From: Bacteroidota bacterium
GTDB taxonomy: Bacteria > Bacteroidota > Bacteroidia > Chitinophagales > Chitinophagaceae
Length of the DNA: 64,000 nucleotides
NCBI GenBank assembly: GCA_947452905.1
Contig: CANGEP010000001.1
Coordinates: 434,001-498,000 of the forward strand
Reading direction: 5' to 3'
The notes beneath the pieces were generated by a model. That model was not told where the DNA came from. It ran no database searches and worked only from the letters and a program-made list of their open reading frames with translations. The position numbers and the translations under genes are program-made. This document shows positions 57,012 through 62,187 of the stretch, piece after piece. How positions within the stretch are numbered: the first letter of the stretch is position 1; the number at the start of each line of letters is the position of its first letter.

Positions 57012-58652
57012 ATGAAAATTGTGTATTCTTTGATTTTTTTGATGATGGCAAATTTCGCCAAAGCTCAACTTAATAAATCACCAAATGATAAGCCAAAATT
57101 GGTAATTGGCATTGTAATTGACCAAATGCGATGGGACAATGTGAATAGATATAGTCAATTTTTTAAAACTAAAAATGGATTTTTAAAACTGGTAAATGAA
57201 GGCGCTTCATGTAATTATACCCTAATTCCTTATGTTCATACAGTAACTGCTTGTGGCCATACTGCAATTTATACAGGATCAGTGCCAGCCATTCATGGGA
57301 TTGTAGGCAATAGCTGGTTTAATAATTTAACTGCCAAAACAGAGTATTGTGTAGAAGATAAAACAGCTACAACATTAGGAAGTAACAATGAAGCTGTAGG
57401 TAAAATGAGTCCAAAAAACTTATGGACCTCGACGATTGGAGACGAATTAAAACTTTCAAATAATTTCCAAAGCAAAGTAATCGGAATTTCCTTAAAAGAC
57501 AGAGGTGCCATAATCCCTGCTGGTCATACTGCTAATGCTGCCTATTGGTATGATGGTGAAACTGGCAATATGGTAAGTTCAACATATTATCAAAAAAGTA
57601 TGCCGCAATGGGCCACAAATTTTAATAATTTGCATGAAGTAGATAGTTTTTATAAACAAGGCTGGAACTTAAGTTTACCTAAGTCAGTTTATGAAAAAAA
57701 TTGTGACGACGATGATAATGTTTATGAAACAGGATTTTATGAAGAAAAAATTAAAGTAAATTTTCCATTTGATTTAACTAAACTTATTGGGAAAGATTAT
57801 AAAAGATTATTTTCGATACCTCAAGGAAATAAATTAGTTACAGATTTTGCAAAAGAGGCTATTCAAAATGAACATTTAGGTACTGACTCAATTACTGATT
57901 TATTAACCTTAAGCTTTTCTACACCTGACTATATAGGGCATAATTTTGGGCCCTATTCATGGGAGTCACTTGATGGTTACATTAAACTTGATGAAGTTTT
58001 AGCTGATTTTTTTGCTTATTTAGATAAAAAAATTGGTAAAGATAACTATACTTTATTTTTAACAGCCGATCACGCTATTGCACCAATACCCGGATTTGCA
58101 AAAAAGAATAAGTTGCCTGCTGATTACTATGTATCAGCTGATATATCTAAAGATTTAAATAATTTATTAGCCGCCAATAATTTAAAGAAGGATTTAATAA
58201 GCAGTGTATACGAATCCACTATTTATTTTAATCACAAACTAATGGATAGTCTTCAAATAACAGATGCCTATCTAACACAATTGATTAGTAAGTTTTTAGA
58301 AAGTAAACCAAATGTATTACAGGTTGTAAATAATCGTAATGCTGCATTAGCTCCACTACCACAACTAATTAGAGAAATGTTATTGAATGGATACACCCCT
58401 CAACGCAGTGGGGATTTAACTGTTTTATTAAAATCAGGAGTAATAGATGGATATCCAACAGGTGCAAGCCATGGAGTATTTTACAATTATGACTCTCATA
58501 TTCCTTTATTCTTTTATGGCAAAGGAATCAAAAAAGGAAATGTAAATAGCATGAACTATATGACCGATATTGCTCCTACCATAAGTACTTTATTAGGGGT
58601 ACAAATGCCAAGTGGCTCTATTGGTAAACCTATTTTAGAAGTGTTAAAATAA
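57012..58652 (+). CDS. pafA: PafA-type alkaline phosphatase
   Basis: This 546-residue secreted phosphatase (signal peptide to about residue 18, NFAKAQ) belongs to the alkaline phosphatase superfamily and is expected to hydrolyse phosphate monoesters. The nucleophile is Thr79 in TVTACGHTAIYTG. Asn100 (GIVGNSWFN), Lys162 and Arg164 (SLKDRGAI) follow, and these positions coincide with the numbering that I recall for the PafA active site of Elizabethkingia meningoseptica. Metal ligands appear in VIDQMRWDN, FSTPDYIGHNFGP, LTADHA and GASHGV. It is likely periplasmic and would supply phosphate from organic esters. Confidence 0.95.
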   Translation: MKIVYSLIFLMMANFAKAQLNKSPNDKPKLVIGIVIDQMRWDNVNRYSQFFKTKNGFLKLVNEGASCNYTLIPYVHTVTACGHTAIYTGSVPAIHGIVGNSWFNNLTAKTEYCVEDKTATTLGSNNEAVGKMSPKNLWTSTIGDELKLSNNFQSKVIGISLKDRGAIIPAGHTANAAYWYDGETGNMVSSTYYQKSMPQWATNFNNLHEVDSFYKQGWNLSLPKSVYEKNCDDDDNVYETGFYEEKIKVNFPFDLTKLIGKDYKRLFSIPQGNKLVTDFAKEAIQNEHLGTDSITDLLTLSFSTPDYIGHNFGPYSWESLDGYIKLDEVLADFFAYLDKKIGKDNYTLFLTADHAIAPIPGFAKKNKLPADYYVSADISKDLNNLLAANNLKKDLISSVYESTIYFNHKLMDSLQITDAYLTQLISKFLESKPNVLQVVNNRNAALAPLPQLIREMLLNGYTPQRSGDLTVLLKSGVIDGYPTGASHGVFYNYDSHIPLFFYGKGIKKGNVNSMNYMTDIAPTISTLLGVQMPSGSIGKPILEVLK

Positions 58653-58711
58653 CTTTATCTCATCAAAGATTTAAAATTTAAGCTTACATTCAAACTCTAA
58701 AACAACTATTT

Positions 58712-58927
58712 ATGAAAAAAATTTTAATTGCTGCTTTATTTTTAATGGCTTCAAATTTTTCATTTGCAGCTGACAAATGTTCTGCTGATTGTCATAAATC
58801 AGAGCATAAATGTACAAAAGCCTGCCATAAAGATGGCGCAGGGCATATTGCCAATCATGGCGAAAAAGGCCATATGTGTACTACAAAAGACTGTAAACAT
58901 GATTGCAGTAAAACATGCATGAAGTAA
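58712..58927 (+). CDS. Small secreted Cys/His-rich protein
   Basis: This 71-residue protein has a signal peptide (MKKILIAALFLMASNFSFAA). The mature 51 residues contain 8 Cys and 7 His, as repeated KC/DC/AC units (DKCSADCHKSEHKCTKACHKD and then MCTTKDCKHDCSKTC). The composition suggests metal binding or disulfides in the periplasm, although no named family is recognised. It sits 60 bases after pafA and is followed by a bidirectional-looking terminator, so it could be a short separate transcript. Confidence 0.75.
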   Translation: MKKILIAALFLMASNFSFAADKCSADCHKSEHKCTKACHKDGAGHIANHGEKGHMCTTKDCKHDCSKTCMK

Positions 58928-58947: not shown

Positions 58948-58981
58948 AAAAAACCCGACAGTTAAAACTATCGGGTTTTTT
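58948..58981. terminator. Bidirectional intrinsic terminator between the Cys/His-rich gene and icd
   Basis: AAAAAACCCGACAG-TTAAAA-CTATCGGGTTTTTT forms a stem with one C-A mismatch, with an A-tract on the 5' side and a T-tract on the 3' side. It can therefore stop transcription in both directions and serves both convergent genes. Confidence 0.85.
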
Positions 58982-59005: not shown

Positions 59006-60235
59006 TTAAGCTAGCTTCTTTTGCAAATTAGCATCTAAAGCATCTAAGAACTCTTCGGTATAAACATAATGTTCGCCATGGCTTACTTTATTTCCATGTA
59101 CACAAACTGCTAAATCTTTGGTCATGATACCAGACTCAACTGTTTCTACGCAAACATCTTCTAATGCTTTTGCAAAACGAATTAATTCTTGGTTATTATC
59201 TAATTGACCTCTAAAATCTAGGCCTCTAGTCCATGCAAAGATTGATGCAATAGGGTTGGTAGAAGTTCTATTCCCTTTTTGGTGTTCGCGGAAATGACGT
59301 GTAACTGTACCATGTGCAGCTTCGGCTTCCATTACTTTACCATCTGGGGTAATTAATGTTGATGTCATTAAACCTAATGAACCAAAACCTTGAGCCACCG
59401 TATCTGATTGTACATCACCATCGTAGTTTTTACAAGCCCAAACAAAATTACCATTCCATTTTAAGGCACTCGCTACCATGTCATCAATTAAACGATGCTC
59501 GTAAGTTATACCAGCAGCAGCATACTTAGCCTTAAATTCGTTTTGATATACTTCTTCAAAAATATCTTTAAAACGACCATCATACTTTTTAAGAATAGTA
59601 TTTTTTGTAGATAAATACAAAGGCCATTTTTTAGACAAAGCTTGGTTAAAACAAGCACGCGCAAAACCATAAATACTTTCGTCGGTATTATACATGGCAA
59701 GCGCTACACCATCTCCTTTATAATTAAAAACTTCAAACTCTTGATTAGTTCCATCTTCCCCTTCAAATTTGATGGTTAATTTACCTTTACCTTTTGTTAC
59801 AAAATCGGTAGCACGGTATTGATCGCCAAAAGCATGACGTCCAATACAAATGGGAGCTGTCCAGTTAGGCACTAAACGTGGTACATTTTTACAAACAATA
59901 GGCTCGCGAAATACGGTGCCATCTAAAATATTACGAATGGTGCCATTAGGGCTCTTCCACATTTGCTTTAACTTAAACTCTTCTACTCTTTGCTCATCGG
60001 GTGTAATGGTAGCACATTTGATACCTACTCCATATTGTTTAATAGCATTGGCAGCATCAATAGTTACTTGGTCATTTGTTTCGTCACGATATTCCATGCC
60101 CAAATCGAAGTATTTAATATCGATTTCTAAATAAGGAAGGATTAATTTATCCTTAATAAACTTCCAAATAATTCTGGTCATTTCATCACCATCCAATTCT
60201 ACCACTGGATTGGCTACTTTAATTTTTTGTCCCAT
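59006..60235 (-). CDS. icd: NADP-dependent isocitrate dehydrogenase
   Basis: This TCA-cycle enzyme converts isocitrate to 2-oxoglutarate with NADP. The 409-residue protein is of the dimeric eukaryote-like (IDH1/IDH2) type. Its motifs are [21 protein letters not shown] at the start, [20 protein letters not shown] near residue 94, [28 protein letters not shown] near 252, and [18 protein letters not shown] near 305. I use the ATG at 60235 (MGQKIKV). The ORF-track start 21 codons upstream reads through the promoter box and adds a non-conserved tail. Confidence 0.97.
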
Positions 60236-60255
60236 TTCTTTAAAATTTTTGTACG

Positions 60256-60263
60256 CAAATGTA
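60256..60263 (-). promoter_or_regulatory. Candidate -7 element of icd
   Basis: TACATTTG on the minus strand is a full match to TAnnTTTG, ending 20 bases before the ATG at 60235. It lies within the upstream extension of the track ORF and supports the shorter start. Confidence 0.5.
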
Positions 60264-60318
60264 CAAAATGTAGCAGGAAATCTGAGGATAATAATCAACT
60301 AAAAAATAACGAAAATCG

Positions 60319-62187
60319 CTATAGATTTACAATTAAAACCGGGATTTTAACCTGATGCCTTACCGACTCGATGGTTTCCCCGAAAATATAATCTTTCCAG
60401 CCCTGATGGCGGTGCCCTCCCATCACTAACAATTGTGCGTTATGGGTATTAGACAATCTAACAATTTCTTTAACTCTGTTTTCATAGCCTAAATAAGTAC
60501 TTACTTGGTATCCTTTTGCTTTCAATGCAGATGCATATACATTTAATCTTTGTTGATCCTTTCGTGTTTCATTGTCATCACTGGACTCTTGTAAATATTT
60601 AGCAGTAACACTTTCCACTACATGAATAAAAATAAACTCTGTAGCCTGATGGGCATGTTGAACAGCAGTTTTTATGAGTCTAGCGTCGGTTTCCGAAAAA
60701 TCAACCGCAATGGCAATTTTATTTACTGGTGCTTCTTGAGTCCAATCTAACTCGATAAGATTACCATGAAAACCCTCTTCAATTTGGGTGTGATGACGTT
60801 TTAAAAAGAGCGGAAATATAATAATGTAAATGAGTAGTGAAGCAAAACCCAGCAACAATAATAATAATGTAATCTTGATAGCTAGATTATTACTAGTCTT
60901 AAAAAAATTAGCTGTAAAATCAAAAACCAGATGCACATTTAAATACACTAAAATAGCAGCCACCAACCAGGATAATATTTGAATTTTCCAACCAATTGCA
61001 AATTCACCCATAGTGGTTTTATTACTCACAAAATGAATTAAAGGAATTACAGCAAAACCTAATTGTAAACTTAAAATCACCTGGCTAAAAATTAATAAAG
61101 CATCTACTTTCCCTTCCCCCATAATGCCAATAACAAGAACTGCTGGAATGATAGCTATTAATCTTGTTAATAGTCTTCTTATCCAAGGGTTTAGCCTAAG
61201 CTTTAAATACCCTTCCATCACTATCTGACCCGCTAAAGTACCTGTAACAGTGGAGCTTTGACCAGCAGCTATTAAAGCTATTGCAAATAAAGTAGGCGCC
61301 AAAGTTGAACCTAATAAGGGTGCCAACAAAGCATGGGCTTGTTCGATTCTTGCTACTTCGGTATGTCCACTAAAATAAAAAGTAGTAGCAGCTAAAATTA
61401 AAATGGAAGCATTCACAAAAAAAGCTGCATTAAGTGCAACCACACTATCAATAAAATTAAAAAAGATAGATTTCTTGATCCCCTTTGTTGATCTTTCAAT
61501 TTTTCTTGTTTGTACTAGTGCAGAATGAAGATATAAATTATGTGGCATCACAGTAGCACCAATAATACCTACAGCAATATATAAAGCCTCTGGACTTAAA
61601 GCACTGGGAATAAATCCACTAATGGCAAAACTCAAATCAGGTTTTGCAATAAACATTTGTATTAAAAAGCTAAAGCCAATCGTAGCTACTAGCAACAATA
61701 TAAAAGCCTCCATTTTTCGAATGCCAAAGCGTTGTAAAAACAAAAATAAAAAAGTGTCAAATACAGTAATTAAAGTGCCATACATTAAGGGAAGTCCCGT
61801 TAATAATTTTATCCCAATCGCCATCCCTAATACTTCGGCTAGATCGGTGGCTGCAATGGCTAACTCTGCTAGTAAATACAAAATGAAATTTACAAAAGGA
61901 GGAAAAGTTTCCCGATTAGCTTGTGCTAAATCGAGCCTTCGCACGATACCTAATCTGGCACTTAAACTTTGTAATAGTATTGCCATTAGATTACTGAGTA
62001 GTAAAACCCAAATGAGTTGGTATCCAAATTTGGCTCCTCCTTGTAAATCTGTAGCCCAGTTTCCAGGGTCCATATAGCCAACACTTACCAAATAAGCGGG
62101 TCCAATGAAGGCCAATAGTTTCCTAATGCCTTTTTTACCTTTAATAGGCACAGATTCATGTAAAGTATCTAATGATTTTTCGGACAT
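60319..62187 (-). CDS. Nramp-family Mn/Fe transporter fused to a universal stress protein domain
   Basis: This is a 622-residue two-domain protein. Residues 25-455 are an MntH-like Nramp transporter with 11 helices and the metal-site motifs GYMDPGNWATD (DPGN, near residue 38) and VMPHNLYLHSALVQTR (MPH, near 213). A USP domain occupies about residues 485-622 (KIAIAVDFSETDARLIKTAVQHA; nucleotide-type motif VMGGHRHQGWKDYIFGETIESV). The cytoplasmic USP part may sense ATP or stress and control metal uptake. It is divergent from the lipoprotein gene (43 bases between starts). Confidence 0.94.
   Translation of the reverse strand: MSEKSLDTLHESVPIKGKKGIRKLLAFIGPAYLVSVGYMDPGNWATDLQGGAKFGYQLIWVLLLSNLMAILLQSLSARLGIVRRLDLAQANRETFPPFVNFILYLLAELAIAATDLAEVLGMAIGIKLLTGLPLMYGTLITVFDTFLFLFLQRFGIRKMEAFILLLVATIGFSFLIQMFIAKPDLSFAISGFIPSALSPEALYIAVGIIGATVMPHNLYLHSALVQTRKIERSTKGIKKSIFFNFIDSVVALNAAFFVNASILILAATTFYFSGHTEVARIEQAHALLAPLLGSTLAPTLFAIALIAAGQSSTVTGTLAGQIVMEGYLKLRLNPWIRRLLTRLIAIIPAVLVIGIMGEGKVDALLIFSQVILSLQLGFAVIPLIHFVSNKTTMGEFAIGWKIQILSWLVAAILVYLNVHLVFDFTANFFKTSNNLAIKITLLLLLLGFASLLIYIIIFPLFLKRHHTQIEEGFHGNLIELDWTQEAPVNKIAIAVDFSETDARLIKTAVQHAHQATEFIFIHVVESVTAKYLQESSDDNETRKDQQRLNVYASALKAKGYQVSTYLGYENRVKEIVRLSNTHNAQLLVMGGHRHQGWKDYIFGETIESVRHQVKIPVLIVNL

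Follow-up and report, generated by a model that had tools for sequence, protein, structure and literature searches.

At positions 58712..58927 on the + strand of the window, by which we mean the whole 64,000-nucleotide stretch of DNA that was analysed, from a freshwater Bacteroidota bacterium, lies a gene whose product we propose, with a probability of roughly 0.6, to be a small exported metallothionein-like metal buffer for ions of the Cu/Zn/Cd/Hg type. The peptide most likely acts as a cell-envelope sponge for toxic, sulphur-loving metals, because related Bacteroidota genes sit inside mercury-resistance operons. To our knowledge, only a few bacterial metallothioneins are known, and most of them are cytosolic. 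If the proposal is correct, the peptide family would represent a new component of envelope metal defence in Bacteroidota that is modular, invisible to Pfam and NCBIfam, and located in part within mercury-resistance operons.

The open reading frame runs from an ATG at 58712 to a TAA that ends at 58927, exactly as placed by the first-pass annotation, and encodes 71 aa that consist of the signal peptide MKKILIAALFLMASNFSFA followed by the mature part ADKCSADCHKSEHKCTKACHKDGAGHIANHGEKGHMCTTKDCKHDCSKTCMK. The signal peptide (residues 1-19; 58712..58768, + strand) was recognised by eye from a KK pair, a hydrophobic stretch and an S-F-A site, and its layout is identical in all aligned relatives. Cleavage, also judged by eye, would leave 52 residues if it occurs after SFA and 51 if after FAA. 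The first-pass annotation had described a tiny secreted protein with 8 Cys and 7 His in 51 mature residues, and those counts are exact: the cysteines are residues 23, 27, 34, 38, 56, 61, 65 and 69, and the histidines are residues 28, 32, 39, 45, 49, 54 and 63. The peptide is also rich in lysine, and its mature part contains no aromatic residues (F/W/Y). Against a background set by the genes of the window (0.92% C and 2.0% H), the chance of at least 8 Cys in 52 residues is P ~3e-8, and that of at least 15 Cys plus His is P ~2e-11. Of the window's 78 mechanical ORFs of 40-110 aa, no other has at least 8 Cys. The candidate ligands are organised around a core module, H32-x-C34-x3-C38...H45-x3-H49-GEKGH54-x-C56-x4-C61 (58805..58894, + strand), which was delineated by two alignments and genome searches. 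One extra CxxxC on each side completes the window sub-type: an N-terminal pair (C23-C27; 58778..58792, + strand), which is present in close orthologues and missing from distant members, and a C-terminal pair (C65-C69; 58904..58918, + strand), which is also present in close orthologues. AlphaFold2 modelled the metal-free chain with low confidence (mean pLDDT 57) and one short helix, which fits a chain whose folding depends on metal, yet proves nothing.

The first-pass annotation had proposed a search for homologues, and orthologues with 68-87% identity were found at 16 loci in GTDB contigs and in many same-genus genomes, with the syntenic relatives labelled Sediminibacterium sp. or Chitinophagaceae, a group to which the source organism most likely belongs as well. 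The orthologues differed at a fraction of 0.41-0.81 of synonymous sites and ~0.06-0.12 of non-synonymous sites (0.21 in the most distant one), and the median dN/dS of the mature part was 0.08. Because the protein is conserved despite extensive change at synonymous sites, we conclude that 58712-58927 is a real gene under strong purifying selection. Weak matches such as L019, L020, L023 and L032, which lack the core motif or contain stops, were set aside as chance.

We also examined how the gene is likely transcribed. A strong terminator-type hairpin at 58948..58981 (fold -15.6 kcal/mol, z -4.9) follows the coding sequence, which agrees with the first-pass description of a self-contained gene with a terminator, but the hairpin is common to the peptide gene and the convergent icd gene rather than its own; it is missing from the list of a consensus terminator scanner. 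Upstream, the sequence TACATT (58685..58690, + strand) is a candidate -7 element of the Bacteroidota TAnnTTTG type, and TAnnTT, which resembles the Bacteroidota -7 box, is kept in 11 of 11 aligned upstream regions. In the relative L034, pafA and the peptide gene have a terminator between them, and similar inverted repeats were seen by eye in L009, L037 and L038, of which the L037 repeat is missing from the scanner's list. Based on the L034 terminator, the inverted repeats and the conserved TAnnTT, we consider it probable that the peptide gene is transcribed on its own, at least among relatives. The window copy starts 59 bases past pafA with no terminator in between, and therefore read-through from pafA is possible there.

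The neighbours of the gene are a PafA-type alkaline phosphatase (57012..58652, + strand; PDB 5tj3, E 1.7e-139; Pfam Phosphodiest) and the convergent isocitrate dehydrogenase gene icd (59006..60298, - strand; identified from its sequence), which confirms the earlier placement between pafA and central metabolism. Two genes from the peptide gene lies an Nramp-type metal transporter with a fused universal stress protein domain at its C-terminus (60319..62187, - strand; Pfam PF01566, PF00582), and this fusion is conserved in close relatives. We treat all three neighbours as context, with pafA having no part in the function. Nearly all close relatives maintain the order pafA - peptide gene - icd - Nramp, and yceG, yihY and kbl lie upstream where the contig extends far enough. 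PafA-type phosphatases are Zn enzymes, which together with the conserved order would suit a metallochaperone that delivers one specific metal, for example Zn or Cu, to a transporter or an exported enzyme, Nramp and PafA being candidates. However, we consider this reading unlikely. We inspected the icd flank in 40 same-genus genomes that lack a strong peptide match there, and in 11 of them pafA directly adjoins icd with no such ORF between, the gap being 72-213 bases between matches as compared with ~350 in the window. A shortened Cys-rich exported peptide stands beside icd in another 12, pafA is not beside icd in the stretch read in 16, and the remaining genome has a pafA-icd gap of 1,253 bases. 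Furthermore, in G531 and G049 the pafA-icd site is empty and a module gene lies elsewhere in the genome, the L034 terminator separates pafA from the gene, and the family has no constant partner gene. Because same-genus genomes keep pafA-icd without the gene, or with a module gene elsewhere, we conclude that pafA does not need the peptide and that the gene's position reflects inheritance and not function. On the evidence of the empty sites and the L034 terminator, we rejected a partnership with pafA; the earlier suggestion of a metal buffer for secreted metalloenzymes such as PafA is not supported for the same reasons, and also because of the members that lie far from pafA.

The gene is accessory within the genus, being absent or shortened in many same-genus genomes. 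In the twelve genomes with a shortened form (L233-L238, L240-L244, L248), the peptide of the pafA-icd slot retains the N-terminal CxxxC/CxxC part and has lost the HGEKGH half; in one example, its first 52 residues share 81% identity with a full-length relative. Same-genus genomes with the full gene, the half-length form or an empty site offer a natural experiment.

The core apparently represents an uncatalogued Cys4/His4 module that is common to exported proteins of Bacteroidia. Two alignments yield the consensus H-x-C-x3-C-x(4-7)-H-x(2-3)-H-G-E-K-G-H-x-C-x(3-4)-C, and even among distant relatives its 4 Cys and 4 His show little or no variation. The members, which are short exported proteins or lipoproteins, carry between one and three copies of the module, and the window peptide has both defining traits of this HGEKGH family, an export signal and an HxCx3C...HxxHGEKGHxCx(3-4)C core. 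Of the 147 same-genus genomes searched with a full-length profile, 33 gave a match at E <= 1e-10 and a further 11, mostly with shortened forms, at E <= 0.01. A core profile matched 25 of 399 sampled genomes at the level of the order, 21 of 295 at that of the class and 2 of 297 from across the phylum, each count including the genome of the window, which places prevalence at ~6-7% of the sampled order and class genomes. Plasmid records searched with three query proteins gave no match, and none of four pattern matches in viral contigs was confirmed. One member from another class (L145:5969-6538) has a long, charged, repetitive MEKKGE/MQKKAE stretch followed by two C-terminal HGEKGH modules.

The first-pass remark that the gene is easily missed by annotation agrees with the lack of any Pfam or NCBIfam model for it. 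Searches of Pfam, NCBIfam and PDB returned nothing over threshold for the window protein, nor did searches with distant relatives (five in Pfam, three in NCBIfam). We rejected a YPYG_dom match (21.3 bits against a cut-off of 30), an NF-X1 zinc finger match (PF01422; 12.3 bits, under the gathering cut-off of 22.7), and weak NCBIfam matches that cover the signal-peptide end only. The prokaryotic metallothionein model PF02069 matched neither the window protein at E <= 10 nor five relatives at E <= 1. In the papers searched, the strings HGEKGH and GDCCVxC were not found, a search for Cys/His-rich periplasmic metal-binding proteins with Chitinophaga returned nothing, and the words metallothionein, cysteine-rich and hypothetical are absent from the main text of a survey of mer genes (PMC8261052).

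To examine gene context, up to 13 kb was fetched around 60 members or candidate members. Six of the ~60 module loci lie near MerTP, three of these also with MerA: L148 and L149 (G850 contigs 5 and 6), L194 (G497, from the window's own genus), L150 (G1070), L154 (G931) and L167 (G733). The gene order is ArsR - MerTP - module lipoprotein - MerP-like - MerA in L148, ArsR - MerTP - module lipoprotein - MerA in L194, and ECF sigma - 83-aa ORF - DUF6789 - ArsR - MerTP - MerP-like - MerA - module protein - CsoR-family regulator in L150. MerTP exceeds its cut-off at all six loci, including L148 (NF033556), where MerA also exceeds that of TIGR02053 (503 vs 454). The 50 module-bearing genomes contain 25 MerTP loci over the cut-off, and six MerTP-module pairs within 4 kb were seen as compared with ~0.07 expected (Poisson P ~1e-10), an estimate for which per-genome module counts were set by hand from the order and class searches. 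The mer-linked G850 and G497 may descend from one shared ancestral operon, and the same test with four loci taken as independent gives P ~8e-7. This association with MerTP is a first functional clue, which points to thiophilic metals as judged from gene context, and the mercury operons are one sharp lead on the function of the family. Most module loci lie away from mer genes. Six relatives belong to mer operons and the window copy does not, with no metal-resistance gene adjoining it and Nramp two genes off but after icd. Because a search of its own genome (G000; 2.29 Mb, estimated completeness 100%) found no MerTP, the mercury link belongs to the module and not to the window copy.

Several other features recur around module genes. 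The Bacteroidota mer layout of L148, L150 and L194, and also of L149, L154 and L167, comprises an ArsR-family regulator, a MerTP fusion, a MerP-like protein and MerA, with a GDCCVxC protein, a DUF6789 membrane protein, an ECF sigma factor and a CsoR-family regulator as accessory genes. The DUF6789 membrane protein (PF20587) adjoins module genes in L149, L150, L167, L168 and L171, with no MerTP in the stretch read in L168 and L171, and is a possible partner in metal handling. In three genera belonging to one family (L144, L147, L161, L173), a closely related two-component system (a 64-73% identical kinase and an OmpR-type regulator) is encoded close to module genes and could be the metal sensor. 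RND efflux pumps lie near eight module genes (L179, L180, L182, L186, L190-L192, L162); because seven of these apparently belong to a single syntenic clade at class level, they were not counted as independent evidence.

Since the periplasm is oxidising, the cysteines may be in disulfides, and the peptide might then be a redox buffer or a disulfide-stabilised envelope protein that binds no metal. Export to such a compartment and the even number of Cys in CxxxC spacing fit this reading, but we give it only a slim chance, as the His are conserved as much as the Cys, which disulfides leave unexplained, and the module is associated with mer genes. It is distinctly improbable that the family is dedicated to mercury capture and that the window copy is a relic of a lost mer operon: relatives are mer-associated, including G497 of the same genus, MerTP is missing from the own genome and the gene is lost or shortened in many same-genus genomes, yet very strong purifying selection and stable synteny in the clade are unlike a relic, and most module genes lie away from mer. 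A secreted antimicrobial or signalling peptide would likewise be small, exported and rich in lysine and Cys, but is extremely improbable given a conserved rather than diversifying sequence, the lack of an adjoining immunity or dedicated export gene, and relatives that include lipoproteins inside resistance operons.

We therefore favor an extracytoplasmic metallothionein-like buffer because of the conserved Cys4/His4 candidate ligands, the export, the tandem amplification and the mer association. Many members carry tandem module copies, as binding capacity would predict, and ArsR-family and CsoR-family metal-responsive regulators occur in the same clusters as module genes. The strong purifying selection and the accessory distribution among genomes of the genus also speak for a buffer; counting against it, most module loci are not near mer and twelve same-genus genomes lack the HGEKGH half. 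The exported, cleaved and largely unfolded peptide would wrap soft or borderline metal ions with its CxxxC pairs and the His of the HxxHGEKGH stretch as candidate ligands, such that the core may form one or two Cys/His sites and the end CxxxC pairs of the window sub-type may add capacity. It would thereby sequester Cu(I), Zn(II), Cd(II) or Hg(II), in the periplasm or on the cell surface, ahead of any reaction with exported proteins. Where relatives have a mer operon, the module probably captures Hg(II) prior to import by MerTP/MerP and reduction by MerA, and in the own genome, which lacks MerTP, it is more likely a stand-alone general buffer. We infer the metal binding, the identity of the metal, the protective role and the presence of thiols rather than disulfides. 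The earlier claim of an exported metal-binding peptide has good inferential support from the conserved core of 4 Cys and 4 His and the relatives in mercury-resistance operons. Protection against copper or zinc, also suggested earlier, is plausible, but mercury is the only metal indicated by gene context, and not in the own genome. More tentatively, and somewhat short of an even chance, the peptide may belong to a new exported metallothionein-like family of Bacteroidota with 1-3 Cys4/His4 'HGEKGH' copies, which would provide an extracytoplasmic capture step that the textbook mer pathway does not include and a stand-alone Hg/Cu/Zn buffer in streamlined freshwater lineages without MerTP. The tandem-copy members form a ready series for binding capacity.

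Small metal-sequestering proteins are a known kind, and this family appears to be undescribed in the databases and literature searched. Metallothioneins usually lack aromatics and a confident apo fold. Like the bacterial metallothioneins (SmtA/BmtA, PF02069; MymT), the peptide is small, Cys-rich and non-aromatic, has His beside Cys, has no confident fold without metal and likely binds multiple metals (traits compared with the general description in PMC7558416). In contrast to the known ones, which are cytosolic, it has a signal peptide (by eye), an HGEKGH core, CxxxC rather than CxC clusters, and modular tandem copies. Csp1 is larger and exported by the Tat route, and its four-helix bundle forms even without metal and takes up 13 Cu(I), whereas the peptide is 52 aa long with many His, no twin-arginine in its signal and no predicted bundle. 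The likeness to Csp1-type copper storage proteins, which are thought to store metal in the periplasm (PMC7558416), lies in export and CxxxC richness. The GDCCVxC domain (seleno)protein (NF041374) is also small, Cys-rich and next to MerTP in Bacteroidota clusters (L154, L149), but it is unrelated in sequence, non-exported by sequence, and encoded by a separate gene within the same clusters. Finally, some exported relatives resemble MerP, the periplasmic mercury-binding protein, in being encoded in operons with a regulator, MerTP, a MerP-like protein and MerA. However, the peptide has no HMA domain, GMTCxxC motif or Pfam or NCBIfam MerP match, and module genes stand beside MerP/MerTP rather than in their place, with most members outside mer operons.
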